Shown: in pieces, positions 6,736 to 53,713 of the stretch
Numbering within the stretch: position 1 is the stretch's first letter
Layout of the letters: each line of letters opens with the position of its first letter
Origin: Ezakiella coagulans
GTDB lineage: Bacteria; Bacillota; Clostridia; Tissierellales; Peptoniphilaceae
Length of the DNA stretch: 64,000 nucleotides
Assembly (NCBI RefSeq): GCF_003096635.1
Contig: NZ_QEKV01000003.1
Location: forward strand, 124,001-188,000
Direction: 5' to 3'
The notes under the pieces: generated by a model
Database searches by the model: none
What the model was told of the DNA's origin: nothing
The model's input: only the letters and a program-made list of their open reading frames with translations
Translations under genes and position numbers: made by a program

Positions 6736-9015
6736 CTATTGATTATCGTTTTCTCCTGTAAATAAATCAGCCAACTTTTGCAATTTTTCTTCTTCTTCGT
6801 TTAGCTTCATATCTATAATACTTTTGTCCGAAGTTCTGTTCTTTCTTCTTGCCGCCATCATTCTGTCGAATTCTTCAGCAGCAAGACGTGCTTGTTTTTG
6901 TGCCTCAGTTTCAACCTCACGAATAATATGATTTGGATTTATTTCGGACTCTTTTCTTTTTTCTTTCGAAACTTCTTTTTGAGAGCTTTCCCTTACCTTT
7001 TCAAAATTCATCGTCTCATCTGTTGACTTTTGAACTCGAACATTTGAAACAGAATCAAATTCTTGCTTTGTATCTTTAGTCTCCGTTTTAACAGGAGCTT
7101 TCTTTTTAGCTTCTTTCGAACTTTCGCTCAAATTCTTCACAGATATATCTTTGAGCTCTTTTGCACGTGAATTCTTGTCCACCTTTTTCGAATCCATATC
7201 AATCGAATCATGAACTTCCGCACTCTTTATATTCTTCTCCATCTTTTCGTTTTCGAGCCTTGCTTCCTCTCTCAAACGCTTATATTCAAGCTCAAGTGCC
7301 TTCGGATCTGCTGCATCTATTTTTGAAACCTTCTTTTTAGACTGCTTTTCATTCTCTTTTACAAGTTTCGAATGTGAAGCAATCTTCTTCAAGTGTTCCC
7401 TTTCGCTTTCAATCCTCTTTTCAGCTTCTTGTGCGAGACGTTTCGCCTTTCTTCGTCTTTCTTCCTGATTTATATTGAGGTCCTCGTCTGTGAAAATGCT
7501 TTCTTTTGCCTTCTTTTTACTGAATCTTTGGAAGAATGAACCCGACTTTTTGTCAGACTCAACCTTTTTAGGTTCATCCTTAAAAAGCTTCTTTTCAGTT
7601 TCCGCTTTCAAAGCTGCATCGTCAAACGCAGTCTTTCTTTCAATCACCGGCTCGCTGTCGATGTTAATCTCTTTCGGTTCATCATTTTCCGGTGACGTAT
7701 CGTCATCCCATCCCTTTATTCCGGACTTTTTGTCTGATTTTTTATTTTTTACTTCCTCAAACTCATCAAAATCTTCATCGTCAAAATCATCTTCATCCGG
7801 TTCAACCATAATATTTTTAAGCTTATTTAAAAAACTCACGTCTTCTCCTCCATTTTCTACATATTCATCGCTTTTTATATTGTCGCTTTTCTCTTGAAAG
7901 CTTTCCAAATCCAATTCATTATGCGGCTCTTTATTTTCATCAACCGTGTCTTCTTTTGGAATATCCGGCTCATCAATTGCTTCCTCCACAGGTGCAGTGC
8001 CGTTCGGTCCGTCCGGCGGCGGATTGTCATCGTCCCCGTCATCTCCTCCTTCGTCAGGCCCTTTGTCATCAGGCTTATCGTTTGAATCATCAGCCGTTTT
8101 CATAGCCGACAGCTTTTTGATTGCCTTCATATATCTCTTCTTCTTGTGCCTTGTCGTTAAAATTAATAATAGCAAGAATGCAATCACGCCAAGTGCAATA
8201 AAGAATCTGTTTTTGTATTTAAAAATCTCCTTGTTTTCCCTTGCCGTCACAATGTCCGCCACAGCGTCATAAGGAATTCTTTCTCCGCGAACCAACAGAC
8301 GATGCGTGTTTATCATATACGGCGTACATGTAAGAAGTGTCGCATAGTCGTGTCCCTTAACAACCAAAAGATCGTCGAACTCATCCGGATTAACAACCTT
8401 TATTTGCACAACCTTATATGCGAGAGTTTCCGCCAAATTGTGCACATAAAAAACATCGCCTTCTTTTAACTTTTCAAGATCCGTGAAAAGCTTTGCCGTC
8501 GGAAGTCCACAGTGTGCAGTGAGAACCGTGTGGGTGTCGATGCCGCCGACTGGAAGACTCGTGCCCTCAAGGTGTCCCACACCTTTTTGAAGCACCTCTT
8601 CATCCGTGCCCGCATACATCGGAATGTCCACATTTATCTTTGGAATTTCAACGTGACCCATTCTCTCGTTTATCTCGAGCATCCTTGCGTACTCTTTTCG
8701 ACCCGCAGCCTTTTGCTCGTCGGTGTATGGGTCCTTGTCTATATGGTTCACGAGTGAATCGTTAAATGCATGTGCAAGCTCAATTCTTCTCTTTACTTCC
8801 GCATCGTCAAGCTTTGCAGCCTCCTTGTCGAAATCGTCAATCTCATAACTCGACTCGACATTATAATATAGACGGGAAATAATTGGATACATCAAAACCA
8901 AAAGTCCCATCAAAAAAATTGCAATCAAAAGAAAAGTTGAAGCTCGTCTCTTCTTTTTTCTCGCAGCCTTTTTGTTTTCGATATTCACTTTTTCGTTCTT
9001 AATATCCTTATCCAT
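6736..9015 (-). CDS. Class C sortase 3 with long charged C-terminal extension
   Basis: The first 290 of 759 residues form a class C sortase: transmembrane helix about 27-47, lid-like DPY near 95, catalytic His168 in AHCG, Cys230 (TLLTC), Arg239 (THRL), and a second transmembrane helix about 271-288. Residues 289-759 have no match I recognise. They are rich in Asp, Glu and Lys, with a Pro/Gly/Asp linker and long helical, coiled-coil-like stretches (for example around 518-600 and 690-750). By normal class C topology the extension is cytoplasmic. The ATG at 9015 follows GGGAG; a TTG four codons earlier contains that Shine-Dalgarno and is unlikely. It is first in the three-sortase operon. Confidence 0.9.
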   Translation of the reverse strand: MDKDIKNEKVNIENKKAARKKKRRASTFLLIAIFLMGLLVLMYPIISRLYYNVESSYEIDDFDKEAAKLDDAEVKRRIELAHAFNDSLVNHIDKDPYTDEQKAAGRKEYARMLEINERMGHVEIPKINVDIPMYAGTDEEVLQKGVGHLEGTSLPVGGIDTHTVLTAHCGLPTAKLFTDLEKLKEGDVFYVHNLAETLAYKVVQIKVVNPDEFDDLLVVKGHDYATLLTCTPYMINTHRLLVRGERIPYDAVADIVTARENKEIFKYKNRFFIALGVIAFLLLLILTTRHKKKRYMKAIKKLSAMKTADDSNDKPDDKGPDEGGDDGDDDNPPPDGPNGTAPVEEAIDEPDIPKEDTVDENKEPHNELDLESFQEKSDNIKSDEYVENGGEDVSFLNKLKNIMVEPDEDDFDDEDFDEFEEVKNKKSDKKSGIKGWDDDTSPENDEPKEINIDSEPVIERKTAFDDAALKAETEKKLFKDEPKKVESDKKSGSFFQRFSKKKAKESIFTDEDLNINQEERRRKAKRLAQEAEKRIESEREHLKKIASHSKLVKENEKQSKKKVSKIDAADPKALELEYKRLREEARLENEKMEKNIKSAEVHDSIDMDSKKVDKNSRAKELKDISVKNLSESSKEAKKKAPVKTETKDTKQEFDSVSNVRVQKSTDETMNFEKVRESSQKEVSKEKRKESEINPNHIIREVETEAQKQARLAAEEFDRMMAARRKNRTSDKSIIDMKLNEEEEKLQKLADLFTGENDNQ

Positions 9016-9042: not shown

Positions 9043-9071
9043 ATTATACCAACAACCGTGTAATTTGTCTA
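9043..9071 (-). promoter_or_regulatory. Promoter of the sortase operon
   Basis: On the minus strand TAGACA, 17 bases, TATAAT precede sortase 3, so the sortases can be transcribed separately from the pilins. Confidence 0.7.
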
Positions 9072-9078
9072 TAAAGAG

Positions 9079-9106
9079 AAAACACGAAACCGTGATTTCG
9101 TGTTTT
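9079..9106 (-). terminator. Hairpin/terminator after the basal pilin gene
   Basis: AAAACACGAAA and TTTCGTGTTTT pair around six bases; on the minus strand the stem ends in TTTT and a pyrimidine-rich stretch. A second GC-rich hairpin GGCGGG/CCCGCC (9112-9127) lies between it and the pilin stop. Confidence 0.6.
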
Positions 9107-9149: not shown

Positions 9150-10178
9150 CTAATCTGCCTCTGTTGTTTTTTCATTTTTTCTTGCGACCGCAAAGCCTGT
9201 TATGAAAAGAATTGCTCCAAGTGCACAAAGCATCGGGAATACCAAATCCCCTGTCTTTGGAAGCGGCTTCCTTGTAAACGGCTTATTCTTAACCACAAGC
9301 CTCTTTGAACTATCGTCACCGTCAACTGTGAACTTGACACTTTGTGTCAACTGCTCAAAGCCCGGTGCTTGTTTCGTTTCCCATAATTCATAGTCGCCGA
9401 ATTGAAGCTCGACATCAAAATCCCCATTCTTGTCTGAAACAAGAGTAAAAATCTTCTCGCCTTGCATCAAATTTTGCGGCTTACCGTCTACCACCTTTGT
9501 GAGTCTGAACACAACGCCTTCAATCGGCTTACCGTCAACGGACACCTTCTTGAAGTAGAAATGTCCATACGGTGGTGGATTTTTCGGTTCTTCAGGCGGC
9601 ACATCCGGTGGATTTTCCGGCGGTGGCGTTTCCGGTGGTGGTGTTAGCGGCGGCGGTGTTTCAGGTGGAGGCGGAACCTCCGGCGGCGGCGTTCCCGGTT
9701 TTTCCGGTTGAGTGTGTTTTGGATTTATAATAATCTTGTCCTCATTCTTCTCTTTCAAGAAATCTGAAACTGAGAACACAAAATCGTTAAACTTGATACC
9801 GTTCTTTATGCCCTTAACACGTGCATAATAAGTTCCCGGTTTAAGCTTTACCGTAATTCTTCCGGTTCCGTTTGCTTCCTTGGAAGTCAAAACATGCTTG
9901 AAATCCTTCTCAAGATCCTTGTCCGACCACATACTGTGCTTGAAAATTGCTTCAAACTTATCGTCGGAACTCATAGAATCCTTGTCGGAAACCTTCCAAA
10001 TCTCAATGTGAGCATCTTCTAGCGACTCCTTAAGATCATCTCTATCATTTTCAAAATAAAGATTTACAACAATCTCAATCTCGTCACTTGCCGCTTGAAC
10101 CCTGAAAAAGGGAAAGAAAAGGCAAAATGCCAATATCAGATTCAGAATCTTAAATTGTTTTTGATTAAACTTCGGCAT
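9150..10178 (-). CDS. LPKTG-anchored basal-type pilin with SpaA/Cna-B domain
   Basis: This 342-residue secreted protein has a signal peptide (about 1-29, cut after VQA), an N-terminal domain with a Cna-B-like strand pattern (30-155), and a proline-rich linker of PPPE-type repeats (about 158-200). A SpaA-type Cna-B domain follows, with the E-box YELWETKQAPGFE. LPKTG at 306-310, a hydrophobic stretch and a positive tail form the wall-sorting signal. Small size, proline-rich segment and position after the backbone pilin suggest the cell-wall-proximal base subunit. Which sortase anchors it is unknown. Confidence 0.85.
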   Translation of the reverse strand: MPKFNQKQFKILNLILAFCLFFPFFRVQAASDEIEIVVNLYFENDRDDLKESLEDAHIEIWKVSDKDSMSSDDKFEAIFKHSMWSDKDLEKDFKHVLTSKEANGTGRITVKLKPGTYYARVKGIKNGIKFNDFVFSVSDFLKEKNEDKIIINPKHTQPEKPGTPPPEVPPPPETPPPLTPPPETPPPENPPDVPPEEPKNPPPYGHFYFKKVSVDGKPIEGVVFRLTKVVDGKPQNLMQGEKIFTLVSDKNGDFDVELQFGDYELWETKQAPGFEQLTQSVKFTVDGDDSSKRLVVKNKPFTRKPLPKTGDLVFPMLCALGAILFITGFAVARKNEKTTEAD

Positions 10179-10257: not shown

Positions 10258-12465
10258 TTATGCTAAACCTTCGAGTTCGTCTTCTTTACGTCTCTTGAGT
10301 GCAAATGCAGCACCAACCATCAACATAACACCGACTACAGTGAAGATAACAGTACCGATACCACCTGTTTGTGGGATGGAAACTTTCTTATTGGCAATAC
10401 ATTGAGCATCATTTTTACCTGATTCTTTTACATAGTCGATTGGGTCTTTTATGCCATTTGCGTATGAACCATTTGCAACTGTAAATTCAACAGGCGCATT
10501 TAATTTTGCATATCCTTCCGGAGCTGTTTTTTCTTCCAAATAATATGTGCCATATTTAAGACCAGTGATTTCGAATTGTCCATCTTTATTAGATGTTAAA
10601 ATAACAACATGTTTGTCATCTTTTGAGCCCCAAGTATAACTATCAGAATAATTATTTAATAATTCTTCATATTTTTCTTGAAGAGTTTTCATCTCTTCTT
10701 TCTTTTTCTTTCCTGCTTCGCCTTCTTGGTCCGCTTTTGTCATCTTGTTATATTCTTCATAAGCTTTATCACGTGCATCTTTTGCATCATCAAGCTCTTT
10801 TTTCTCTTTTTCAACTTCAACAATTGAAGAATGTACAAGATATTTTCCTTCTGCATTCTTTACATAGAATTCAGCGCCTGCTAGTCTTTCAGATTTGTCT
10901 TGGTTGGTCTTAACGAATTTCTTTCCGCCAGTTATAACCTTTGGATCTGTTGGTTCAAGTGGTTTAGGGTTATCGCTGTCAGTATTGTTGTTAATTGTTA
11001 CAACTCCACCTTCAAATGATTTATATTCAGGATCGTAACCTGAAACAGTTTCAACAACTCTATATGTTTTATTATCATCTAATCCTGTGAATGTGTGACT
11101 AAAATTAGTTCCAGTTTTTTCTACTGACTCTACATCTTTCCATTTATCGCCATCCTGTACTTGTAAAGTATAAACAACTCTTACACCGCTTGGTGCATTT
11201 GATTCTTTTCCGTCTACCGACCATGTTTTATTTACTGTTATTTGTTTATTTACCGGATTTCCTTCTTTCGGTTCACTGTGTTTGCCAGGTTTGTTGGAGT
11301 AATCAAGTTTAACGTTGTTCTTATCTACTACATCAGGTTCTGCACTTTTGTTTACAGTTGCTGTATAATTTAATGTGATTTCAATATCGGCTGTTTTAAC
11401 AGCATTTTCAATTTTTGTTAATCCTGTTTCTTTAATATTTAAAGTGAATCCCTTATCTGTTTCAATCAAAATATAATCATCTTTTGTCAATCCGGCTCCA
11501 TCAACTGTTAATGAACCTTTATTGTATGTTAAACCCTTAGTCATTTCATCTGTCCAAACTAAGTTCTTATATTTTGCATCTTTAGGAATTTTTGTTTTTA
11601 CTTCAAATGGAACTACATCTCCAACATTTACTTTTGCAGTTGCTTTGTCTTTACCAGAATTTTCATATTTTGCACCGTCTTTAATGTTTTTATTTGTATC
11701 TTCATATGCATCTGTATCTTTAAAGTGGTCTTTTTTAAAGTTTTTATCAATTTCCGGTTTATCCTTTGTATTCTTAGGATATACATGTGCGTGTTTAACA
11801 ACTCCTTCTTCATTTACAAGTGGAAGTGTAATTACAACAGGAACTGCTTTACTGCCGGATAATAGTTCTGCATCTTCCTTGTCGTATTTAGATTTTGTTC
11901 TGTCTTCAACAATTTGATAATTGCCAACTAGATTTACAGTATTAAATACAACTTTTCCAGTTTCATCTGTAAATCCTTTTAATGCTTGAGATTCATCATC
12001 TGTTTCTGTTCCGTCTTCTTTTATAAATTTGCTACCATCAGCATTTTTAACTACAAAATAAACTCCTTTTGCTGGTTTTTGTGAATCACCAAAATATGCT
12101 TGCATATTCTTAATTTCATTACCATCATAAATTGTTCCATCTATACCAATTTCACCTGGAAATAATTCGCTACCTTTTGTATATAAGTCTTTTAAAACAT
12201 TTGAATCTAGATTGTTTTTTGTTAATTCCTTATATACGTCATTGCCGTTAACTGTAGTTTTGGATATAACTACTCTAACATCTTTTTGTCCATTGTAATC
12301 GCCAGTCCAAACTTTAACATTTAAATCTGACTTATCCATCAAAACTTTGTGTAATGTTACTGTTTCCGTTCTTTCTTCTTCAGCTCTTGCACTGAATGGT
12401 GCAAAAGCACCGAGTGTCATGACAAGTGCAAGTAGCACTGTCAAAAATTTGAATTTTTTGTTCAT
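10258..12465 (-). CDS. Major (backbone) pilin, IPQTG-anchored
   Basis: This 735-residue protein has a signal peptide (about 1-28, cut after ARA). It has a pilin motif VYPKN whose Lys231 is the expected acceptor for sortase cross-linking, and an isopeptide-forming D2-type domain (about 270-395). Middle and C-terminal Cna-B domains follow, the last with E-box [12 protein letters not shown], then IPQTG at 697-701 and a membrane anchor. The last Cna-B domain is split by a Lys/Glu-rich helical insertion of about 60 residues ([19 protein letters not shown] onward). The start follows AAGGAG. It is the best candidate for the shaft subunit of the pilus. Confidence 0.92.
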
Positions 12466-12800: not shown

Positions 12801-15800
12801 TTATTCATAGAGGGCATCCCTCCTTTGAATAAACATATATGCTCCCGCCATCATAATCATCATACCGATGAATACAAATGGAAGTGCTCCAACCCCACCT
12901 GTGGCAGGATATTCAGCCTTGAAGTTTTCAATTTGAATTGGATTAACTTGTGCTTTACCGCTTTCAACATCCACCAACAAATTAGCTTGTGCTATATCAG
13001 TTACTTTTTTATTCTTGTCTACATAATTTCCGGCTTTATTTACCTCGTAAATCTTACCGCCTTCAACCTTGAATATCAAAGCATAATCAAGAAGCTTTGT
13101 ATAACCTGAAGGTGCGGTTGTTTCTTTTACTGCATAAATTCCATCCTTCAATTTCTCGAATTTAAAAGTGCCTTCTTCATTTGATGATTCGACAGTGTAG
13201 CCTTTGTCCGGATTATCCGGTAGTAAATTTCGTCTACTATCATATTCCTTAACAATGTTAAAATCTCTGTCAACCATCGCAAATTGCAGGTTTCCATCTT
13301 TCTTTATATACTCTTTACTAATATAATGCTTTTCAGCCATATATAAAGTGAACTTAGCACCTTTAAGCTTTACACTCTTGTTTTCTCCGTCAACCTTTTG
13401 GAATTCAATCTCCGGATTTTTGTAGTTCTTAATAATAGTAGTATTATCCTTGATATCTACAATCTCACCATTTTTATTGACTGTGAAGTGTGATACCTTT
13501 TCTTTAGGTGTTGGATATCCATCAGGAGCTTTTGTTTCCCAAACTTCGTAATATCCCGGTGCAAGTCCTTCCCAACTAAACTTACCGTCTTCACCGGATA
13601 CTCTTAATGATTCATCATCAAAAATTCCGTCTTTCTTAAGTTTAAATTCTGCTTTTGCAAGTGCCTTTCCATCACTTGAGAACACCGGTTTTGGAGTCTC
13701 TATAAGCCCATTCGAACCTTCTGCAGCTCCTTGCGGTTTCGTATCAACCGCAGTTCCGGCTATACTACCGTCAACCTTTGTATATTCGATTTTGTTTTTG
13801 TAGTTCTTAAAGGCTAATTCTATATCACCGTCGCCGTCTGAGCTCGTTTTTTTCAAGCTCTTATAAAGACCAACCATTTGATAGTATCGTTGATTTCTTT
13901 CATTGTAGTTAATATACTCACCATATAATGCAAATCTACTTTCATTTGGTTTTGTTACTTTTCCTTTAACTATAACACGATACGTCAAATTATCAAAGTA
14001 GTTGCCATTCAAGGACAATATCATCCCATCATTTGTTTTATTAACACTATAATATTCCGATCCCAGATCAGATAAATTTGGCTCACTATCTTTGATTCCA
14101 AATGACCATGGAAGATAACTATTTCTATTGTTCAAATACTCAACTTGAACATCTGTAAATTCGACCTCAGAATTTGAGGTAAATTGTATCTTTTTACCAT
14201 ATGTGTTTATATTTTTATGGTTAAGATAGAAATTTGCAATAAATTCATCTGTGTCTTCATCATATTTAACCAAACATGCATTTACCTGAACATCATCGCC
14301 ATAATTGTATTGAACATTAAAGTTTTTGCTTAACTTTGAAGTTCCAGCAGTTACTGAAACAGCTATGGTGTCTTTACCGTCTTTATGTCCCGGAACTTTA
14401 ATTCTATTTACTGCCATCAACATTCCAATATTAATATTTTTAATATCGTAGTGTTTTGCATATTCTGTAAATGTGTAAGTTATTTCTCTTCTGTTATCAT
14501 CATTTATTTCTGCTGTTGCAAGAAGACCTGCCGGGCCGTAGATATCATATTCATCATCATGAGACCTTCCAATTCCGTCCAAATCAACATTTTCACTTGC
14601 AACAACCTTGAAAGTATCACCTGGTTGAATATGTGCGTTTTCATCTACTTTATATTTTAGATTTGCTTGTATAACTTCTGAATTGTTAGGTGTTATATAG
14701 TAGTCATCATTTATGATAGAGGTCATTTTTGATTCTATAGAATTTAATATCAATTCATTCGAAACATCTCTACCTGTTGGAGTACCTTTTTCCCATTTCT
14801 TACCTATCAAAACAACTCTAACTTCACCGTCTACAATATATCCCGGTTTTGTCGAAATCTCTTTAACATAATACTTATCGTAAGGAAGATTTGTAAAATT
14901 AATTTCACCCTTTTCATCAGTTGTAAATTCTCCAACCAAATCTCCTCTCGAATTATATAAGTTAAATTTTACACCTTGAAGACCCTTGTTGTTTTCATCG
15001 GTTTTAAGAATTTTGAACTTTCCATCTCCCGGTTTACTGTTAAGAATCTTTATATTTTCGTCAGTTTGAGGTTTGTATTCCCCATTCTCCATTATAAACA
15101 CTTTTCCATCATCGTCGATTTTGAATAATTTTACATCCTTATTTAGCACATAATATCCTGCCGGTGGATCTGTTTCAACAACTTTATACTCTCCAGGCTT
15201 TAGACCGCTGAATTTAATTTTACCCTTAGCATCTGATATTGCTGTATACACCGGATTAAAGTCGACATAATTCTCGCCATTTTTTATTTGTAGGATAAAT
15301 TTAGCACCGGTTAATTTTATTTCATTTCCATTTTCTTCAGCTATTTTTTTAAATTCAACTTCGTAACCTTTGTACTTGTTGGAAATATTGAACGAGAATT
15401 CATTTCCATCTTTATTCGGTTCAACGTTGTTAGATTCTTTTTCTCCATCTAACCGATTTACATTAAATGTAGGAAGGAATTCATGACTCATCGGGAAGTT
15501 TACATACGTAATTCCGGTTATCGGTTTATAACTTCCCTTTTCTACATTTGCCTTAGGTTTAAATTTGAAAGAGTATGTGTTAGGAGCACTGTTAAAGTAA
15601 ACATATTTTCCAGACCAAGCTTTATCATTAACATTTTTATCTTCAAATTCAAAATGCTCAGTATCGAAATACATATTCAGTTGTGAGTATCTGTTATCAT
15701 TTGGATAAGAAGTACCCTTAGTGTTAACATTTACAACATATCCATCCCCGGATTTTTCTATAACCGGACTAACATCTAAAACATGTTTTTGATAATAAGT

Positions 15801-18800
15801 GAAATTCCAAGTTCCAATTGCTTTTGTATTCGGATTATCTATTCCAAACACAGTTTTAGAAACTGTTGAATTTTCTGTTACTTCAACTGTATTATCTTTT
15901 CCAACAACTACTGTCCAAGTTTTATTAGTTTTTTCATAACCTTTAGGTGCTTCAAGTTCTCTGATAATATAAGTTTTTCCAGGTTCGAGGTCTTTGAATG
16001 TTGCTTTTCCATCTTTTCCGGTTGTTACGGTGTATGGTTTATCATCTCTTTTAACTTCTTTACCGTTTTCATCAAATAGTCCGAATATAGCTCCAGCTAT
16101 TTTTTGATTGTTATTATCTTCGTCAACTTTTATGATTGTGACTTTTATCTTTTCTTTTTTATTGACAACTTGGATTATTTTCTTAGAGTCATTTATTTCA
16201 ACAACTCCATCTCCAATTGGTGTTGATGAGTCAACTTCTGTATTTGAAACTTTTAATTGTGTTCCAACTATACCCTTCATAAAAGTTCCGAAATCCGGGT
16301 CACAATACCAATTATAGTTTATATATCTGTCTTGTACAATTGTTTTTCCTATGTCCGGATTTGGTTCTTTGTATCTTGCATTAATCTCTATAACATAAGC
16401 AGCGCCGTTCCATCTTCCAGGTTCCCCTGCACTCATGAATTCAATCTTTTTATTTGATATAATATTCACTTCTTGGGTCGATGGAATTGTTTTATTTGTT
16501 CTTAAATATTGATCAATGTTTCCTTTTGATTCTCTCGGCACTTTGTAAACAGCTGTAGTTATATCTTGGTTTGTATTTGATGCAGATAGTTCTAACACAG
16601 TCTTCTTGTTTGGTCCATTTCCCAAATTCGGATTAGAATCAGGATTCAAATATATTCTCGTTTTTACATGATTGCCATCTTTTTCAATTACTTTTGAATA
16701 AATATTCATAAAAGCCGGATAACCACCATGGTGAGAAAGCATTTGCTCTTCATTCAATTGTTCAGAAGTCTTTCGTACCTTTCTACTTCGACCATTGGTT
16801 TGAACTTGGAAGATTTCATCGTCATTTTCTACTCCTGTGAAACTTACAACACCTTCAGCAGATACTGTTACATTTACCGTTCGTAAAGTTGCCTTATGCT
16901 TATCAGGTGGAACTGTTTCTTTGAGTGTATAAGTTCCTTCGCTTAACCCCTTAAACTCAACAATACCTTCTTTATTGGAAGAATTTCTTCTTATAACTCG
17001 TCCGTTTGAATCTAACAATATAAATTCAGCTCCAGATAATGGAATATTATTTCCATTGTTATCTTTTTCTTCGCTGACCTTTTTTACAATAAATTCACCA
17101 GGTTGTTTCTTGTTATAAACAGTTAAGTCATAATTTTTTGGTTGAGGTATTATAACATTTCCACCGATAGCTGCACCCTTATTCAATGTAGGTCTCATTT
17201 GAGCAATACCCATGCTGGAATAATTGCCTGCCTTGTGAGCCATAAATGTTTGCGTGTAGGTGTTTTCAAATTTCGTAGGATCCGTAATTTCGTAAAACTG
17301 CTCAATTACATATCCTTTACCTTCTTTTTTAGTTTCGACAGGTAATGTTACAAAAAATTGATATTGTTGAGTATCATATAATTGCGGGTGATATTTATCT
17401 TTTATATTAACTCTGCTTTTATCAAAGTCAATAGTTACCCCATGGTCACTAACCTTGCCGTTGCTTTTACCTTTAATGCCATCAAATGTTGCTAAAGGTT
17501 TATAAATGCCAGGATTTTCAGAAGGTCTTATACCACATGACAATGGCATATTGTCTGGATTTGGTGTTTCTAGAACTTCATATACTACCACTTTTGTTGG
17601 TTCAAAAGCAGGTTCTTGTTTGTCTCCAAACAAAATTTCTCTTCCATTATTTACACTTGAACCATAATATATTCTTGCAACTGTGTCGCCATTAGAATAT
17701 TTTTTTCCAAAAACATTGAATAACGCAATGTTTCTCATCATATATCTTTTTTCCGAACTATCCTTATATATGTCGACATTTTCAGTAATATACTTTACAT
17801 TTCCGTCTTGACCGTAGAATTGTTTTAAGTCGGCATTAACTTCTGTATCTATCCTCTTTTGATTTTCACCGACATTTATTATGTCTCTAAACTTGTATAT
17901 TCCGTTGTTTTTTACATAATACTTTGACGGTCTTATGCTATTTAATTCAAGTTTTACTTGAAAACTGTCATGATTATTTACATAATCTGTGTCGGACAGT
18001 GTATATTTGATTTGATTGTTTCTATAGTCAATCTCACCCTTTGCAACTTCTTGATCGTTAACTTTCAGTACAGGAAGCTCGCCAGACCATTGTGTGAAGT
18101 TCCAGTTATCATCAAAGTCCATGACCCACGAATCTCCAACCCCACAATTCTCAAGATTAAATTGAGCTTCAAACGAGTACGATTCATAAGCTGCTTCTTC
18201 CCAAACGCGCGGTCTCTTTCCATAATTATTGGACTCGTTAAGATACATTCTAGGCTCGCCAATAACAGTTATTCTTTTTGTTCCTTGTAAGCCTGATGTA
18301 CCACCTGTATTGTTTTCTCCAACTTTGTAGAGATCTCCTTCTTCAACTTGTTTTCCATTTTTATCAACGGCATCGTAAATAATTGAACCATCAGGATTTA
18401 CAAATACATTAAATGTTAATTCAGGATTATAGTATCCACCAGGTGACTTGGTTTCTTTCAAAGTATATTTCCCCGGTGCTAATTTGTCAAAAGTAAGCTT
18501 ACCACCAACTTCTGTTGTTCCGGTTCTTATTATTTGTCCAAATGAATTATATAAACTAAATTCAGCGCCTGAAAGTTGATTATTCTTATCATCAAGCTTT
18601 TGAATATTTAAAGTAGTTCTTTTAGCTTGTGTGTTTACAACAGTAAATGTCGGAGCAAATGCTGCATTTCTTTTATTTAATGCAGGAATAAGCGTATCGC
18701 TTTCTATTTTTGTTTGTTTCTCAATTTTAGCATTATCAAATTTAGTATTGAAAACATTTACATTAGGTTCTGACATTGTTAGCCATCTGTATGAAAATGT

Positions 18801-21800
18801 GCTGTTTAAATTTTGGTCGTTGATTTTACCTGTTATTTTTATTAAGAAAGCCCATCCTTTAAAGTTCTCAATAGGTTCTTTTGGATTAGGTACACCAAAT
18901 CTCTTATAAGGAATCATTATCGCGTGAACGTTTTTACCAAGAAATCCATCCGTATAATTTGCTTCTTTAACTATCTTTCCACTTTTATTGTCAATACCAC
19001 TAATGTCATTTCCGAGTGAAAGTTGATTTGCAGTCTTGCTATACATTGCATTTCTAACGTCTTCTCTTTTACTTGGACCTACGTCAAAGATTTGTACAGC
19101 CGTAATATTTAAATTATCGCCAAACATAGAAACTCTAGTACTTCTATCTGTGGAGCTATATTCTGTGCCACCCGGTCCGAAAGAATTTACATCTGGTTTT
19201 AACATGATATACGAAGTGATATTATTATTTTTGTCAACTTCTGTATATTCGAGTGTATTCATATATCCCGGCCATGAGAACGAGCCATTATAATATTTAA
19301 CATCACTTTTCCATGATGTACCTTGATTTGTATTCTCTGAAACAGCATTCGATATGAGGTTCTTTGTCCATTCAACACTGCCGTCATCTCTAACTGTAAT
19401 AGTGTCTGTTCTCGTGTTTTGTTCATATCCTTCAGGAGCTTTTGTCTCTTGTAAAGTATAAACTCCCGGTGGAATATTAGTGAATTTAATACTACCTGAT
19501 GAGTCAGATGTTCCTTCTATTTCAAAGTTGTCTGGAGAATTGTTTCCACCATTGTTTTTTAATCCATAAATCTTAAAAGTTGCACCCGGTAAAGGACGGC
19601 CATTTTCATCTTGTTTGTTAATATTTATTTCACCAGGCTTTAAATTTGTCTTTTCAGAAATATAGTTTTGAATTTCATATCTTCCTCTAGCAATTTCATA
19701 AGTTTTATAAACTTCTCCACATTGAAGATTTGTGCCGATTGTTTCATCAAATTTTTGACTTATACTATATTCAATTTTTTTAGGTTTTCCATTTGCATCA
19801 ATGTTCCATAATTTTACTGCTTTAATTTTTGTGTCAATTTCATTTCCTTTTACAGGATTATCTTCTTCCTTTAGAATTGTTGTTGAAAAAATTTTCGGCG
19901 GATTTTCATCTGAAGTTAAAGTAATTGTTTCTCCTGGATATTTTGAGTCAGTGACCCTTTTTGACCATTTAACATTTACATCAACATCTCTATATTTTGA
20001 AATAACTCCATCAGATAGTGTATAAGTTTGCAGTTCGTCTGATTTTAAAAGTTTTGTTTTGTATTCGTAAACCGCAATTGTTCCCGGAGTAAATGTTTTA
20101 TCTCCGTCTAATTTACCGGCTGCAATAGGGTTATTCTTTTCTATTTTTCCCTTTATTTGATGCATTTTACCGTCATCAGGACTGTCAGGACTATTGTAAA
20201 GACCGTAGTATGCAACATTTAAAGAATTAAGTTTTTGATTTTCACTTATATTTCTTTCAATAAGCGGTAGTGTCCCTTTGTCGCCCGACGAAACTTCTTC
20301 TGTCAAAATCCATTCAGCAGTATCTTCCGATGTAAACTTACCAGAAATTGTAGTTCTGTTTGAATAGGTCATGTCGTTAGGTGAAACCATTTCAAGTCTG
20401 GCACCTTCATAAGCCGGCATAATCAATCTTACAGCTCCGGTCTTCTTTACACCACGAAGCTTTGCGGCTATATCGAGAACATAAGCTTTTTGCTCAGAAT
20501 CTACCTTAGTTTTAAACTTAAATGTATAAACACTTTCTGAATTGTTATGACCGTCAAAATATTTTGAATCATTGATAAGGAACTTATCTCCCAAATCGTT
20601 GTCAGTTAAGGTTACTCCTTGCCCATTAAGATTTACTTCTTCTATTGCTTTAAGTCCTGAATTTCTAACTGCTGTAAAGTTTGTAATAAGATTTAGATTT
20701 TTACTATTTAAACTTTCTCCATTACCATCAAAAACTACAGTCCAATTTATAGATGTAACTTTTCCATTTTCAACAACCGGACTTGCATCTGCGTTGAACG
20801 AAACTTTATATGAAGGTCCATATTCAAAAAATTCGTATCCATCATTTAAATTCGGTTCCCCATTTTGATTAACATCTAAAGTAAAGAGTGACGGAATTTC
20901 TGTTCTCGGATCATCTTTTCTTACCGTTATAGTCGGCATTCTTTGTTCATGGTTATCTTTTGGTGTAACAGTTATATTTACATCAATTATCTTTTTATCG
21001 TCAATCGCTTTAGTGTCAAATGCCAAAAGCTGATCTATATCTATTTTCTTTGTTTTAAGAACATCTTTGACATATTTGTAAGTTATTGTGTGAGTTGCTT
21101 CATTGTAACTTGGTTCGGCAACTACCTCTCTTGGGTTATCCGGATCATATAGTGGTTTTAAAATCGGCTTTGAATTATTATCGTATTCCGGTTTTAAATA
21201 TGATCCGATATTAACATCAAATGTCCATCCTTTTGGAATCTTCCAAACCGGAATAGCTTTTGCAGTCATTGTTGTTTTCAATCTGAATTTCTTTGTTTCA
21301 AATGAAGCTCCACTATATTGAACCGGTGTATTTCCGAGTACCAATTTTATTGTGTTGTTGTCATCTTCCGGAGAAATTTCGAGTTCTTCCGAATTGCCTT
21401 CAGAATCTTCAATTCCTTCAGCGCCGCGAACTGCATCCGCTATCAAGTTTTCACTTACGTCGAGCATATTGAGTAAAGCTGCTTTTTCTTCTTTGATTTG
21501 TTTGAATTCTTGCTCGATTTCAACTTTATCCGTGTCGAGGTCTTCTACAAATGTGTAGACGATTTTGTGTTCTTCAGCAATGTATTCAGCTGTTGCAACA
21601 ACTTTTCCGTCGATTTGAATGTCGTTTGCACGTCCTTCTTCACCATTTAATATAGGAAGAGTTTTACTTAGGATTTCAACTTCGAATTTATCGCCCTTAA
21701 CGATTTTTCTAGAAGCTTTCATTGTTGCTTTAAGAAGAACGTCGAAGTCTCTCGGTTGACCGAAGCCCAACATGCTTGACGTTTCGAGGGTGTGATATAG

Positions 21801-23534
21801 ATTTTGGAATGAGTATTCAACTGCGTCAAATGTGACTTCTGTTGCAACTCTTTCAATAGAATCGATATCGCTTTCGCCGATTGTTACGAGGTCAGCATAT
21901 TGATTTTCAGTTTCTTCTATTATTATAGGTTCATAGATTTTTAAATCTTCGTCTTCGTTCTTAAGTTCAACTGCTTCCAAAGATGTGAGTTCTTTGTAGA
22001 GTTCATATTCTTCATCAGATAGTTCGATGTCATCATAAGGAACGTCAATTTCTTTTGCGTTAAAAACAATTTTATGAACTGAACTTTGAACCGGAGCTTT
22101 TTCTTCAATCTTTTCAGATTCTTTGTTTTCTTCAGTCTCAGCTTTTTCTTCAACTTTTTCTTCAGTTTTTATTTCGACTGTTTCGTCTTTTGTATCTTCA
22201 ACTTTCTCGTTTTCTTTTTCAATGTTTTCAGTTTCTTCTTCCGGAGTTGTTGGTTCAGTTATTTCGATTGGTTCATCTTTTTTGTCTTCTTCCGGATTTT
22301 CTTTTGTTTCCTCTGCCGGTTTTAATTCCGGAGCGATTTCCGTTGATTCAGAAACTGTTGCATCAATTTCTTCCGGAATGATGTTGGATGTTACATTCCA
22401 AATTGCGAGTTGAGTTATAAGTTTCTTTCTAATATTTTCAGTTTCTTTTGTTTCAGCACTTCTTTCAAGAATTGCCTTTACTTTTCCAATGGTTTCGATA
22501 TCATATCTATCCCATGTATATATATCCTTTAAATCGAAAAGAGGTCCATCTTTAAGCTTTTTGTCTACGCCGTTTCCAATAGGTGTTAATTTGTGTGGAT
22601 CAAGTGAATAGGCTACAACAGGATTTTCCTTTTCGCCTTTTTTGATTAAATAAAGTGAAAAATCCAAGCCATTACGGAATTCTTCTCTTATTAAATTTTG
22701 TTGGAAAGCTTCAAAAGCTTTTGCTTCGTCTTTGAGATTTTCATCTACAGTAAAATCAATTGTTAAATCTTGACATCCATCCATGTGGATTGTCATTGTT
22801 TCGTCTTCGTAAATCTTGTCGTCTAGTCTGACTTTTTGTCCATCAGACTTTCTCGTTCTCGTTATTATTGTAAATTCATCGTTGATTAAGTCTTCGATGT
22901 TGTACAAGCTTCCTGAGCGACCTGTTTTAATTTCAACCAATAGTTCTGTTAAGTCCAAGTCTTCTCCAGGTCTATAAACCGTTTTCGGTGCTCTGTAAAT
23001 GCTCCAAGGTTTTACAAGGTCTGTGCTCCATGGAAGAACGCCTGCATTTTCGTGATGTTCTTCATCTTCGAAAGATGCATCTTTCTTTTCTTCTTTTTCG
23101 TTTTCTTCAGGAATAATTATTTCTTCAGGAGAAATTTCAGAATTTTCATTTGTTTCTCCTTCTTCAATTTCATCTCCCCCGACTACAATCGTCGTTGTCG
23201 ATTTTTTCCCTTCTGCAGGAACGATATCGTCGCCCCTCGGTGTAATTGTGTCCACCGGTTTGTTTTCATTTTTTTCTATTATAGGTTTTTGTTGTTCAAT
23301 CGTTGCACTCGGTTGTTCCGGATTTAGTAGATCCACCGTTTTGGTGCTATCTTCCTCCGACGGGGTCAATAAGTCCACCGTATTGGTGTCATCTTCACCC
23401 GGTATTAAATCAACAGTTTTCGCTCCCAGTTCGGGGTTGAACAAGTCAACTGTTTGAGCTGCAAACATTACTTGTTGAAATAACATCAGAAGTGCAAAAA
23501 CCAATGATAGAATTCTCTTTGAATGGCTTTTCAC
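12801..23534 (-). CDS. Giant multi-domain Cna-B surface adhesin, YPATG-anchored
   Basis: This is a 3577-residue secreted protein with a signal peptide (1-26). Four tandem TVDL-type repeats (28-73) follow, then an acidic linker, and a domain at about 285-385 resembling bacterial thioester domains. That domain has TQLAIW (Gln375) but Ser310 where the thioester Cys is expected (AYSLDP). A second acidic linker (about 390-480) leads to alternating large beta-rich adhesin-like blocks and about eight SpaA/Cna-B domains marked by E-boxes such as YTLQETKAPEGY and YEVWETKAPDGY. The wall signal YPATG is at 3542-3546. The GTG start has GGAG nine bases upstream. First position in the pilus locus suggests a tip adhesin; a separate fibrillar adhesin is the alternative. 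Confidence 0.9.
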   Translation of the reverse strand: MKSHSKRILSLVFALLMLFQQVMFAAQTVDLFNPELGAKTVDLIPGEDDTNTVDLLTPSEEDSTKTVDLLNPEQPSATIEQQKPIIEKNENKPVDTITPRGDDIVPAEGKKSTTTIVVGGDEIEEGETNENSEISPEEIIIPEENEKEEKKDASFEDEEHHENAGVLPWSTDLVKPWSIYRAPKTVYRPGEDLDLTELLVEIKTGRSGSLYNIEDLINDEFTIITRTRKSDGQKVRLDDKIYEDETMTIHMDGCQDLTIDFTVDENLKDEAKAFEAFQQNLIREEFRNGLDFSLYLIKKGEKENPVVAYSLDPHKLTPIGNGVDKKLKDGPLFDLKDIYTWDRYDIETIGKVKAILERSAETKETENIRKKLITQLAIWNVTSNIIPEEIDATVSESTEIAPELKPAEETKENPEEDKKDEPIEITEPTTPEEETENIEKENEKVEDTKDETVEIKTEEKVEEKAETEENKESEKIEEKAPVQSSVHKIVFNAKEIDVPYDDIELSDEEYELYKELTSLEAVELKNEDEDLKIYEPIIIEETENQYADLVTIGESDIDSIERVATEVTFDAVEYSFQNLYHTLETSSMLGFGQPRDFDVLLKATMKASRKIVKGDKFEVEILSKTLPILNGEEGRANDIQIDGKVVATAEYIAEEHKIVYTFVEDLDTDKVEIEQEFKQIKEEKAALLNMLDVSENLIADAVRGAEGIEDSEGNSEELEISPEDDNNTIKLVLGNTPVQYSGASFETKKFRLKTTMTAKAIPVWKIPKGWTFDVNIGSYLKPEYDNNSKPILKPLYDPDNPREVVAEPSYNEATHTITYKYVKDVLKTKKIDIDQLLAFDTKAIDDKKIIDVNITVTPKDNHEQRMPTITVRKDDPRTEIPSLFTLDVNQNGEPNLNDGYEFFEYGPSYKVSFNADASPVVENGKVTSINWTVVFDGNGESLNSKNLNLITNFTAVRNSGLKAIEEVNLNGQGVTLTDNDLGDKFLINDSKYFDGHNNSESVYTFKFKTKVDSEQKAYVLDIAAKLRGVKKTGAVRLIMPAYEGARLEMVSPNDMTYSNRTTISGKFTSEDTAEWILTEEVSSGDKGTLPLIERNISENQKLNSLNVAYYGLYNSPDSPDDGKMHQIKGKIEKNNPIAAGKLDGDKTFTPGTIAVYEYKTKLLKSDELQTYTLSDGVISKYRDVDVNVKWSKRVTDSKYPGETITLTSDENPPKIFSTTILKEEDNPVKGNEIDTKIKAVKLWNIDANGKPKKIEYSISQKFDETIGTNLQCGEVYKTYEIARGRYEIQNYISEKTNLKPGEININKQDENGRPLPGATFKIYGLKNNGGNNSPDNFEIEGTSDSSGSIKFTNIPPGVYTLQETKAPEGYEQNTRTDTITVRDDGSVEWTKNLISNAVSENTNQGTSWKSDVKYYNGSFSWPGYMNTLEYTEVDKNNNITSYIMLKPDVNSFGPGGTEYSSTDRSTRVSMFGDNLNITAVQIFDVGPSKREDVRNAMYSKTANQLSLGNDISGIDNKSGKIVKEANYTDGFLGKNVHAIMIPYKRFGVPNPKEPIENFKGWAFLIKITGKINDQNLNSTFSYRWLTMSEPNVNVFNTKFDNAKIEKQTKIESDTLIPALNKRNAAFAPTFTVVNTQAKRTTLNIQKLDDKNNQLSGAEFSLYNSFGQIIRTGTTEVGGKLTFDKLAPGKYTLKETKSPGGYYNPELTFNVFVNPDGSIIYDAVDKNGKQVEEGDLYKVGENNTGGTSGLQGTKRITVIGEPRMYLNESNNYGKRPRVWEEAAYESYSFEAQFNLENCGVGDSWVMDFDDNWNFTQWSGELPVLKVNDQEVAKGEIDYRNNQIKYTLSDTDYVNNHDSFQVKLELNSIRPSKYYVKNNGIYKFRDIINVGENQKRIDTEVNADLKQFYGQDGNVKYITENVDIYKDSSEKRYMMRNIALFNVFGKKYSNGDTVARIYYGSSVNNGREILFGDKQEPAFEPTKVVVYEVLETPNPDNMPLSCGIRPSENPGIYKPLATFDGIKGKSNGKVSDHGVTIDFDKSRVNIKDKYHPQLYDTQQYQFFVTLPVETKKEGKGYVIEQFYEITDPTKFENTYTQTFMAHKAGNYSSMGIAQMRPTLNKGAAIGGNVIIPQPKNYDLTVYNKKQPGEFIVKKVSEEKDNNGNNIPLSGAEFILLDSNGRVIRRNSSNKEGIVEFKGLSEGTYTLKETVPPDKHKATLRTVNVTVSAEGVVSFTGVENDDEIFQVQTNGRSRKVRKTSEQLNEEQMLSHHGGYPAFMNIYSKVIEKDGNHVKTRIYLNPDSNPNLGNGPNKKTVLELSASNTNQDITTAVYKVPRESKGNIDQYLRTNKTIPSTQEVNIISNKKIEFMSAGEPGRWNGAAYVIEINARYKEPNPDIGKTIVQDRYINYNWYCDPDFGTFMKGIVGTQLKVSNTEVDSSTPIGDGVVEINDSKKIIQVVNKKEKIKVTIIKVDEDNNNQKIAGAIFGLFDENGKEVKRDDKPYTVTTGKDGKATFKDLEPGKTYIIRELEAPKGYEKTNKTWTVVVGKDNTVEVTENSTVSKTVFGIDNPNTKAIGTWNFTYYQKHVLDVSPVIEKSGDGYVVNVNTKGTSYPNDNRYSQLNMYFDTEHFEFEDKNVNDKAWSGKYVYFNSAPNTYSFKFKPKANVEKGSYKPITGITYVNFPMSHEFLPTFNVNRLDGEKESNNVEPNKDGNEFSFNISNKYKGYEVEFKKIAEENGNEIKLTGAKFILQIKNGENYVDFNPVYTAISDAKGKIKFSGLKPGEYKVVETDPPAGYYVLNKDVKLFKIDDDGKVFIMENGEYKPQTDENIKILNSKPGDGKFKILKTDENNKGLQGVKFNLYNSRGDLVGEFTTDEKGEINFTNLPYDKYYVKEISTKPGYIVDGEVRVVLIGKKWEKGTPTGRDVSNELILNSIESKMTSIINDDYYITPNNSEVIQANLKYKVDENAHIQPGDTFKVVASENVDLDGIGRSHDDEYDIYGPAGLLATAEINDDNRREITYTFTEYAKHYDIKNINIGMLMAVNRIKVPGHKDGKDTIAVSVTAGTSKLSKNFNVQYNYGDDVQVNACLVKYDEDTDEFIANFYLNHKNINTYGKKIQFTSNSEVEFTDVQVEYLNNRNSYLPWSFGIKDSEPNLSDLGSEYYSVNKTNDGMILSLNGNYFDNLTYRVIVKGKVTKPNESRFALYGEYINYNERNQRYYQMVGLYKSLKKTSSDGDGDIELAFKNYKNKIEYTKVDGSIAGTAVDTKPQGAAEGSNGLIETPKPVFSSDGKALAKAEFKLKKDGIFDDESLRVSGEDGKFSWEGLAPGYYEVWETKAPDGYPTPKEKVSHFTVNKNGEIVDIKDNTTIIKNYKNPEIEFQKVDGENKSVKLKGAKFTLYMAEKHYISKEYIKKDGNLQFAMVDRDFNIVKEYDSRRNLLPDNPDKGYTVESSNEEGTFKFEKLKDGIYAVKETTAPSGYTKLLDYALIFKVEGGKIYEVNKAGNYVDKNKKVTDIAQANLLVDVESGKAQVNPIQIENFKAEYPATGGVGALPFVFIGMMIMMAGAYMFIQRRDALYE

Positions 23535-45354: not shown

Positions 45355-46812
45355 TTATGCTTTATAGATTTTATCCAAGACTTGACCGTCTCTATATTCC
45401 ATATATCCAATTACGCGTTTTGATTCATCGCGTTTCTTTTGTGGAACGCCTGTGAGTGAATCTGAAAGTTCTTTTAATTCTTTTATAGTCATAACTTCAA
45501 TATTATGAGCCTTTAGAGCTTCAATGATGTCTGTTCTGTTTTCATTAACAGCGACCCCTCTTTCAGTTACAAGCACGTCAACTGTACTTCCCGGAGTTGA
45601 GATAACTCCAACTCTGTCAACGATAAGAGGAATTCTCGATTGGAAAAGTTTTGATACGATAATCGAAACTTTTGCTCCGTATGCCGTGTCTTGGTGGCCA
45701 CCTGAGCCGCCCATTATAACACCGTCGTGACCCGTGGTTACGTTTACATTAAAATCGGTATCAACTTCAGTTGCTCCCAAAATTACAAAGTCAAGACTGT
45801 TTACAATTGCATCTTTGTACGGTGATGCATATTTTTCAGCGGACATTGTAATATGTCTCGGATCATTTTTGATATCTTCGGCACTCTTTAGGTCGAAACA
45901 TTGAACGTCATAGATTCTGTCAAAGAGTCCTCTGTTTTTCATATCGCAAAGGTCTCCGGTAACTCCGCCTGATGCAAATTTACCTTTAATGCCTTCTCTT
46001 TCCATATAATCGCCCAAAAATTTCGTTACTGCGAGGCTCACTCCGCCTGCTCCCGATTGATAGCACATGCCTTCTTTAACAAGTCCTGTTGCAACCATAA
46101 CTTCAACAGCTTTTTGTGCAATTCTAAGTCCAACAGGGTCTTTTGTGATTCTCGTAGTTCCCGAAATAATTCCGTTCGGATCGCCAATTGAGTCAACTTT
46201 TAAAATATAATCGATTCTTTCGCTAGGGATTTCTGTCTTTCCTTCGAGCGGAAGAATTGTATCTGTAATTGCAACAGTCTTTTCAGCCATTATCGAATCG
46301 GCAATTGCATAACCCAAAGTTCCACAGAAAGCTTTTCCTTCAGTTGCGGAAATATTTCCGTGAATATCTGTTGAAGGTGCTCCTATAAATGCTACGTCAA
46401 TTTTTATGGAGCCTTCCATAATTGCTCTTGCACGACCGCCGTGTGATTGCATTACGAGAGTTCCCTTTAAATCTCCGTGTGAAATTGCCTCAGCAACCGG
46501 TCCAGACATATATGAAACGATAACGTTTTTGATTGTACCGTCTTTTATTAGAGGGACAATCGGTTCGTGGCATGGGAAAATTGAGGAAGCAACCAAAGTG
46601 ATATCTTTGATGCCTCTTCTTTTAACTTCTTCAAAAACCATATTTAGTACATAGTCACCGTTTCTCAAGTGATGGTGGAAACTTAAAGTTGCTCCGTCTT
46701 TTATTTCGAGCTTATCAAAAAGTTCAGAAATATTTTGAACCATCTTGTTTTCTTTTTCAAGTTTATTTACAGGCTTAAATTCAGCGCTCATATCTTTATT
46801 TAATAAGTCCAT
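45355..46812 (-). CDS. citF: Citrate/citramalate lyase alpha subunit (CoA transferase)
   Basis: This 485-residue CitF-family protein has the family blocks LSFHHHLRNGDYVLN, MSGPVAEAISHGDLKG, SHGGRARAI and GGSGGHQDTAYGAK. It swaps the acyl group on the acyl-carrier subunit. In this operon, next to glutamate mutase and methylaspartase, citramalate is the likely substrate rather than citrate. It overlaps the beta-subunit gene by 17 bases. Confidence 0.9.
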   Translation of the reverse strand: MDLLNKDMSAEFKPVNKLEKENKMVQNISELFDKLEIKDGATLSFHHHLRNGDYVLNMVFEEVKRRGIKDITLVASSIFPCHEPIVPLIKDGTIKNVIVSYMSGPVAEAISHGDLKGTLVMQSHGGRARAIMEGSIKIDVAFIGAPSTDIHGNISATEGKAFCGTLGYAIADSIMAEKTVAITDTILPLEGKTEIPSERIDYILKVDSIGDPNGIISGTTRITKDPVGLRIAQKAVEVMVATGLVKEGMCYQSGAGGVSLAVTKFLGDYMEREGIKGKFASGGVTGDLCDMKNRGLFDRIYDVQCFDLKSAEDIKNDPRHITMSAEKYASPYKDAIVNSLDFVILGATEVDTDFNVNVTTGHDGVIMGGSGGHQDTAYGAKVSIIVSKLFQSRIPLIVDRVGVISTPGSTVDVLVTERGVAVNENRTDIIEALKAHNIEVMTIKELKELSDSLTGVPQKKRDESKRVIGYMEYRDGQVLDKIYKA

Positions 46813-47656
46813 TTAATTCCTCCGTAAATTCTCCGGCTTGTTTTAAAACATCCGTAGCTCTTAGAATAATAGGCTTGTCGACCATCTTTCCGTCGAGACT
46901 GAATGCACCTTTACCTTCTTTTTTAGCTTCTTCGAGTGCTTTAAATACACGCTTTGCATAGTTAATATCTTCTTTTGACGGAGAAAATAACTCATTTACA
47001 TCGTCAACATGTCTAGGTGAGATGAGAGCTTTACCGGTCATTCCCATCGCTTTTGCAAGTTCAGTGTCTTGTCTTAGTCCCGGAATGTCGTCGGTGTCTG
47101 TCCAAGGTGTGTCGACCGCTTGAACGCCTGCAGCTTTTGCAGCTGAAACAATTTTTGCTCTGGCATATTTTATTTCGTCAGATGCCTTTGTTCTCTTTGC
47201 ACCCAAATCGAGTGTAAGGTCTTCAGCACCCAATAGAACTCCTTCCGTTCTCTTAACTTTTGAGAGAATTTCGTAAGCGAGTTCAAGACTTCTTGCAGTT
47301 TCAATAAGTGCAAAAATTCTTAAATCCGTGCCTTCAAGTTTTTTATCCAAAAGTACGATATTGTCCGGATCGGCCTTTGCAAGCATAAGTCCGTTTATCT
47401 TTGCATCTTTTAATGCTTCGACATCGTCGTTAAAAAACGGAGTGTCCGGGGGATTTATTCTCACATAAACATCATATGGTCTATCTTTTTGAAAAGTATT
47501 CAAATAACTTTTTACCATATCCCTTGCCGCATCTTTGTTATCGAGGCTAACAGCGTCTTCGAGGTCAACAATATATGCATCTGCTCCCAAAACATCCATG
47601 CTCATAAGCATGCCCGGATTGTTTCCCGGTATAAAAAGCATCGTCTTATAATTCAT
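46796..47656 (-). CDS. citE: Citrate/citramalate lyase beta subunit
   Basis: This 286-residue CitE-family protein has MLFIPGNNPGMLMSMDVLGADAYIVDLEDAV, with the acidic Mg2+ ligands, and LLGAEDLTLDLGAKRTK. It cleaves the acyl intermediate, citramalyl or citryl, into pyruvate or oxaloacetate and the acetyl carrier. The context favours citramalate. Confidence 0.9.
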   Translation of the reverse strand: MNYKTMLFIPGNNPGMLMSMDVLGADAYIVDLEDAVSLDNKDAARDMVKSYLNTFQKDRPYDVYVRINPPDTPFFNDDVEALKDAKINGLMLAKADPDNIVLLDKKLEGTDLRIFALIETARSLELAYEILSKVKRTEGVLLGAEDLTLDLGAKRTKASDEIKYARAKIVSAAKAAGVQAVDTPWTDTDDIPGLRQDTELAKAMGMTGKALISPRHVDDVNELFSPSKEDINYAKRVFKALEEAKKEGKGAFSLDGKMVDKPIILRATDVLKQAGEFTEELNGLIK

Positions 47657-47924
47657 TTTGTGCCCCCCTCATAACAGCCGTTCTCACTCTTGCTTTGATT
47701 GCAAAAGGAAGTGCTCCTCTGTCATCAATCGAAATATCGCAAGACTTAACTCCGAGTTCTTCGAGTTCTTCCATTACAGATTTTTCAATCGAATCGTAAA
47801 ACATATCCGAAACAACACTTCTTATTTCCAAATTTATTTTTTCGTTATTCGGCTTTATTGAAACCAACAAATCGTTGCTTTCGTAAGAACCTGCTCTCGC
47901 TTCGGTTACTATTTTTCTTTCCAT
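47646..47924 (-). CDS. citD: Citrate/citramalate lyase acyl carrier (gamma) subunit
   Basis: This 92-residue protein has ARAGSYESNDLLVSIKP, where Ser13 is the expected attachment site of the phosphoribosyl-dephospho-CoA group. It carries the acetyl group between the alpha and beta subunits. It overlaps both neighbours. No citC, citX or citG maturation gene is in the window, so activation enzymes must be elsewhere. Confidence 0.9.
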   Translation of the reverse strand: MERKIVTEARAGSYESNDLLVSIKPNNEKINLEIRSVVSDMFYDSIEKSVMEELEELGVKSCDISIDDRGALPFAIKARVRTAVMRGAQNEL

Positions 47925-48466: not shown

Positions 48467-48475
48467 AATACACCT

Positions 48476-49318: not shown

Positions 49319-49337
49319 TATTTCCCCCCTATGTAGG

Positions 49338-49400
49338 AAAAAGATTTAATCTTTTTAATTTTAGTTTTCGCTCGGAGCGACAAACGACGCTCCAAGCGAA
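49338..49400 (-). promoter_or_regulatory. Two intercistronic hairpins
   Basis: TTCGCTcGGAGCG (49367-49379) pairs with CGCTCCaAGCGAA (49388-49400). A smaller AAAAGATT/AATCTTTTT stem (49338-49356) follows on the minus strand. They lie inside the operon. They may stabilise the glm-mal part of the mRNA, or partly terminate. Confidence 0.5.
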
Positions 49401-49471
49401 TATAAATACATAAATCACGAACTATATATTTAAGCAACCAAAACTATCGAAACTAAATCTTTAGTGTTATC

Positions 49472-50725: not shown

Positions 50726-50791
50726 AGTATAATTCTCCTTTTTAAATAAATATTGTAACTCGAAAATATAATCGGCATTTTGCCAACTAAA

Positions 50792-52246: not shown

Positions 52247-52254
52247 TTATCCTC

Positions 52255-53685: not shown

Positions 53686-53713
53686 AAACCTCTGTCCTAA
53701 TTAATTTTGATAA

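Follow-up and report, generated by a model that had tools for sequence, protein, structure and literature searches.

A class C pilus sortase of Ezakiella coagulans with a long, probably cytosolic tail and a SepF-like island

Background

Class C sortases, known from the streptococcal pilus islands and as SrtC of Enterococcus faecalis, have two membrane helices, a sortase fold with its His, Cys and Arg residues, and genes that lie in an operon with those of the pilins. The charged element to which sortase localisation in E. faecalis has been ascribed is short. A brief cytosolic C-terminus is customary in this class but does not define it.

The positioning of sortases in the cell has been described as largely unknown (PMC12445088). 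In E. faecalis, SrtC is enriched at the septum (PMC10107303), and the focal placement of sortases reportedly requires a charged domain next to a membrane helix (Kline et al. 2009, as cited in PMC3516528). Two other systems bear on the gene described here. The first is SepF, the membrane anchor of the Z ring, which is known to attach to the membrane by a helix at its N-terminus (PMC5717166) and also has a core domain (PF04472) and an FtsZ-binding part. The second is the endolysin CTP1L, a phage lysin in which an internal GTG with a GGAGG-type site was shown to yield a second product (PMC4777826).

Here we describe srtC1, a sortase gene in a 64,000-nt stretch of E. coagulans DNA (the window; contig NZ_QEKV01000003.1, positions 124,001 to 188,000). 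Its product shares the helices, fold, catalytic residues and operon setting of the class C sortases. Whereas those enzymes end soon after the second membrane helix, this one goes on for 471 residues. Like the cytosolic charged stretch beside the membrane helix of the E. faecalis enzymes, it has a basic stretch (residues 289-306) next to its second helix. However, the E. faecalis element is basic, while srtC1 adds about 450 residues with acidic, SepF-like and helical parts.

Results and discussion

The enzyme and its membrane topology

The srtC1 gene is a single uninterrupted open reading frame of 759 codons counted from its ATG; an alternative TTG start 12 nt upstream would give 763 aa. The class C profile NF033745 matches residues 31-246 with 283.7 bits (E 9.8e-85), above its curated cut-off of 160 bits, and the nearest solved structures are class C pilus sortases, with 2w1j at the top (phmmer, E 1.1e-90). 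In the alignment with the ortholog described below, the columns of catalytic H168, C230 and R239 are invariant. The N-terminal lid recognised by sequence carries a DP-aromatic motif (D95-P96-Y97) that is also kept there. The protein thus belongs to the class C sortases; its tail is unusual but does not make it a SepF. The first-pass annotation, which claimed a sortase running past its second helix (about residue 288) to residue 759, is confirmed on this point.

Hydropathy peaks fall within residues 23-51 and 267-291, and the inner side of both helices is flanked by strongly basic stretches. On this basis, residues 289-759 should be cytosolic, which supports the location proposed earlier. Features are collected in Table 1. 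As a side observation, srtC1 has Cys directly after its catalytic His (TAHCG; window positions 8509-8511), where Arg stands in the ortholog and in both neighbouring sortases (AHRG or GHRG).

Table 1. Features of srtC1 and of the surrounding pilus genes (positions in the window)
Feature	Position	Strand	Basis
srtC3, class C sortase, 294 aa	4911..5795	(-)	NF033745, E 1.6e-61
srtC2, class C sortase with ordinary tail, 306 aa	5788..6708	(-)	NF033745, E 3.4e-80
srtC1, class C (pilin-polymerising) sortase with long, probably cytosolic tail	6736..9015	(-)	ORF, NF033745, phmmer
Third conserved island ETEAQKQARLAAEEFDRMMAARRKNRT, residues 702-728	6832..6912	(-)	ortholog alignment
Predicted charged helical segment (coiled coil or single helix), residues 517-600	7216..7467	(-)	AlphaFold2, block pLDDT up to 83
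Second conserved island SGSFFQRFSKKKAKESIFTDED, residues 491-512	7480..7545	(-)	ortholog alignment
SepF-N-terminus-like island VSFLNKLKNIMVEPDEDDFDDEDFDEF, residues 393-419	7759..7839	(-)	tail-profile and SepF-model searches, shuffles
In-frame GTG (V393), aligned with the SepF initiator Met	7837..7839	(-)	sequence; ortholog equivalent is codon 418
Gly/Pro/Asp-rich linker, residues 305-392	7840..8103	(-)	sequence, composition
GGAGGA resembling a Shine-Dalgarno sequence, 6 nt upstream of the GTG (V393)	7846..7851	(-)	sequence; synonymous-codon test
Second membrane helix, about residues 268-288, then basic RHKKKRYMKAIKK	8152..8214	(-)	Kyte-Doolittle scan
Class C sortase domain match, residues 31-246	8278..8925	(-)	NF033745
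First membrane helix, about residues 27-47, preceded by basic N-terminus	8875..8937	(-)	Kyte-Doolittle scan
Terminator-like hairpin (9106-9079), then promoter-like TAGACA-17-TATAAT (9071-9043)	9043..9106	(-)	consensus scan only
Minor pilin, SpaA domain, LPKTGD sorting signal	9150..10178	(-)	domain search and sequence
Major pilin, GramPos_pilinBB/D1/D3, IPQTGG sorting signal	10258..12465	(-)	domain search and sequence
Giant tip adhesin, 3577 aa, SpaA domains, YPATGG sorting signal	12801..23534	(-)	domain search and sequence

A real and rare tail

An ortholog of 872 aa is encoded in Ezakiella sp. SUG955, an independent metagenome-assembled genome. It lies in the same pilus operon, with the same gene order, and adjoins the same rpsF-ssb pair. 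The two proteins are 78% identical over the sortase domain and 38% over the tail. Finding the long gene again, within the same operon of an independent genome, excludes a frame error, and the frame and tail of srtC1 are real. The notion that a frameshift or an assembly artefact has joined a sortase to another gene is hardly credible: it is already refuted by the ortholog of another species with the same architecture, and a tail profile found no standalone tail gene in 130 genomes of the family. No split gene was found that would separate the tail from the sortase, which the first-pass annotation had named as evidence against its reading. Moreover, both genes read through the tail in a single frame, although they have diverged so far that an unused extension would be expected to break.

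This was the one ortholog found by a tail search within the genus. The long tail is present in two of the six Ezakiella genomes, and no further occurrence was found. Among the class C sortases listed from 249 genomes of the order, all measure 262-392 aa stop-to-stop except srtC1 (799) and its ortholog (880), and in a phylum-wide sample of 398 genomes the next longest of those listed has 363 aa; both surveys cover genomes of the Bacillota, and so only part of bacterial diversity. The earlier claim that normal class C sortases stop soon after the helix therefore holds for the others listed from the order (at most 392 aa), and no described sortase with the same tail was found. The enzyme is a lineage-specific variation on a known one, and not a new kind of system.

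Composition and conserved islands of the tail

The tail contains 16.3% K, 14.6% E and 11.5% D. Its AlphaFold2 model, computed from a two-row alignment, is poor overall (mean pLDDT 41.6) and was used for local helices only. Helices are predicted at residues 517-600 and 704-753, with short ones at 393-402 and 494-503, and the rest is mostly coil. Of the tail's earlier description as charged and helical, the charge stands, but the helices account for parts of it only.

The tail is mostly disordered with three conserved islands. Identity to the ortholog reaches 53% at residues 391-420, 73% at 496-510 and 87% at 706-720, against 13-27% in several spacers, and the conservation in related genomes that was to be checked is found in these islands. 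The proposed search of residues 289-759 against profile databases (Pfam, NCBIfam and PHROGs) recognised no family or known domain; AhpC and YxzE were rejected as tail families with weak scores far under their cut-offs. The tail profile found a chance match only among solved structures (E 0.46), and the second and third islands, searched singly across the genus, gave no further relatives. No repeats were found that would point to tandem-repeat expansion as the origin of the tail. An overlapping gene within the tail, antisense or in a shifted frame, is not supported either: the other two sense frames hold 24 and 61 stops, and in antisense no stretch stays open for more than 142 codons.

Many Ser and Thr residues, charged linear segments and the three islands would also suit a sensor or regulator that gates the activity or stability of the sortase from the cytosol, for example through phosphorylation or proteolysis, rather than its position. 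We regard this as very improbable. No known regulatory or protease-tag domain was recognised in the tail by the same three profile collections, and the gate of class C sortases, the lid, acts from the outer side.

Likeness of the first island to Ezakiella SepF

When the two-row tail profile was searched against the 130 family genomes, the sole consistent matches outside the sortases were the N-termini of SepF from all six Ezakiella genomes. All of them fall at the same island, with E values from 7.7e-4 to 0.27. Other weak matches (L039, L041 and L044) are unrelated frames. The annotation of Ezakiella SepF is confirmed by PF04472, and the genuine SepF is encoded elsewhere in the genome. The island reads VSFLNKLKNIMVEPDEDDFDDED and VKFFNKIKKVLIEPDEDDYDEYD in the two tails, and its counterpart in Ezakiella SepF is MSFLDKMKNLIIAPDEEEEYE and variants.

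In the reverse direction, a 28-residue model of the SepF N-terminus retrieves the srtC1 tail as the second match in its own genome (E 0.023, 16.6 bits), with the next, chance match at E 2.56. The ortholog island was not found by this model in its own genome at E 10. For each of two shuffles and two models, 0 of 3000 shuffled srtC1 tails reach the real score; for the ortholog, 17 of 3000 do so (28-aa model). The tails score 16.3 and 11.9 bits against Ezakiella SepF, compared with -4.5 and -2.3 bits against SepF of other genera. The hydrophobic moment of the island resembles that of SepF, and in the ortholog, where it is 0.71, no other tail window exceeds it once windows of too high polarity are set aside.

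By sequence, the tail appears to share with SepF an N-terminal-type amphipathic helix and a PDE-type acidic linker like that of Ezakiella SepF. However, the helix is N-terminal in SepF and internal to a membrane protein in srtC1. The Pfam search gave no PF04472 match in the tail, and a counterpart of the FtsZ-binding part was not recognised there either. Since it is without the SepF core domain, FtsZ binding by the tail is unlikely. Mimicry of the FtsZ C-terminal peptide was rejected as well: Ezakiella FtsZ ends in PW.LDIPPFL, and this peptide is absent from the tail. We read the island as a segment probably derived from Ezakiella sepF or matched to it, the alternative being plain convergence.

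Convergence belongs to a broader, unlikely but serious explanation: a disordered tail under weak constraint that plays no part in positioning, with a likeness that reflects an amphipathic helix which happens to lie beside an acidic stretch. The low-complexity, K/E/D-rich sequence and mostly unpredicted structure are consistent with it, as is the restriction of the tail to two of six congeners. Three observations argue against it. First, the islands are kept at a divergence at which spacers drop to 13-20% identity. Second, the likeness is specific to the SepF of the same genus, PDE part included, and does not extend to other SepF. Third, a SepF model without most of its acidic part gives 11.0 bits for the srtC1 tail, more than any shuffle (at most 6.5 bits).

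As a separate observation, the N-terminus of Ezakiella SepF (MSFLDKMKNLIIAPDEEE) is unlike the MADF.DK.K..FGFG.D of its Peptoniphilaceae relatives (L038-L078).

A possible membrane tether

Our leading but tentative reading, for which the chances are somewhat below even, is that the tail works as a tether in the cytosol: through it the pilus polymerase would touch the membrane a second time, in the manner of SepF, and this would help to place pilus assembly. The catalytic part would link pilins outside the membrane, as is usual for class C sortases, while the 471-residue tail would run as a flexible tether along the inner membrane face and be pinned to it a second time by island 393-419. Islands 491-512 and 702-728, together with the charged helix between them, would be candidate sites for a partner or for self-association. 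The polymerase would in this way be concentrated or positioned, plausibly where SepF sits, at the division site. Membrane contact by the island is reasonably argued from the sequence comparisons; its actual membrane binding, the positioning and the septal address are what we infer from there. Several points weigh against the tether: the likeness to SepF spans about 25 residues, the reverse E value is modest, the ortholog island is missed in the reverse direction, and the tail sequences number two.

The septal address is attractive because SepF sits at the septum and E. faecalis SrtC is enriched there. However, the part of SepF in question binds the membrane, not FtsZ, and therefore the likeness need not mean the septum. 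The first-pass annotation suggested that the tail docks secretion, division or ribosome components and places pili. The SepF-like island gives division and placement a concrete basis, but nothing resembling secretion or ribosomal proteins turned up in the searches. Nor is docking to the divisome borne out, because the SepF part concerned is the membrane-binding one and the tail is without the FtsZ C-terminal peptide.

On this reading, a pilus sortase has its own module on the cytosolic side, and in it a sequence that looks like a membrane anchor and was taken from a division protein or matched to one. If true, this would be a rare reuse of a division-protein anchor by a surface-assembly enzyme, and sortase placement would become testable by cutting or point-changing a single tail.

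A possible internal start

At the beginning of the SepF-like island the gene reads GGAGGAGAAGAC-GTG in E. coagulans, and the ortholog has GGGGAGGAAGAC-GTG; the codon phase of the Shine-Dalgarno differs between the two genes. If the internal GTG is used, it may yield a tail-only protein of 367 aa (455 aa in the ortholog) with the SepF-like helix at its N-terminus. The gene might then make two proteins, the full sortase with its tail and a separate peripheral membrane protein from V393 that would be the main functional form of the tail, for example as a scaffold assembling together with the sortase-borne tail. We consider this unlikely, though several features fit it. A GGAGG with a GTG at the position of the SepF initiator Met occurs in both species. 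In a scan for in-frame sites of such strength, it is the only one in srtC1 and one of two in the ortholog, and in the predicted minimum-energy fold of srtC1 the Shine-Dalgarno is largely unpaired. CTP1L (PMC4777826) offers a precedent with the same combination of internal in-frame GTG and GGAGG-type Shine-Dalgarno, but its second product is proven, while srtC1 has a sequence signature only. On the other side, when codons were randomised synonymously with protein and codon usage fixed, a site arose there in 20% (srtC1) and 26% (ortholog) of cases, and 2.6 and 3.8 such sites are expected per gene, respectively. Since the synonymous-codon test yields the site often by chance, the signature is merely suggestive, and dual products are plausible but statistically weak.

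A more specific version is less probable still: the 5′ end of Ezakiella sepF, ribosome-binding site included, would have been captured into the pilus sortase gene, which would now make an anchored sortase and a SepF-headed tail protein that ties pilus assembly to the division site.

The pilus operon and its neighbourhood

The operon runs from the adhesin through the major pilin, the minor pilin and srtC1 to two ordinary class C sortases. Promoter-like and terminator-like sites lie just upstream of srtC1, and for this reason the three sortase genes may be expressed from their own promoter. The 3577-aa adhesin has a GTG start, Big_8 domains, eight SpaA domains and a weak match to the thioester domain PF08341 (20.3 bits, against a cut-off of 22).

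In another Ezakiella genome (G003), the interval from ssb to alaS measures about 5 kb and contains no pilus genes; presence of the pilus locus therefore varies from species to species. The place of the locus is taken there by two genes that sequence inspection suggests are lipoprotein-like and by one that looks MurC-like. Farther along the window, at 45355-54136, inspection of the sequence points to an apparent methylaspartate-type glutamate fermentation cluster with glutamate mutase, methylaspartate ammonia-lyase and their neighbours.
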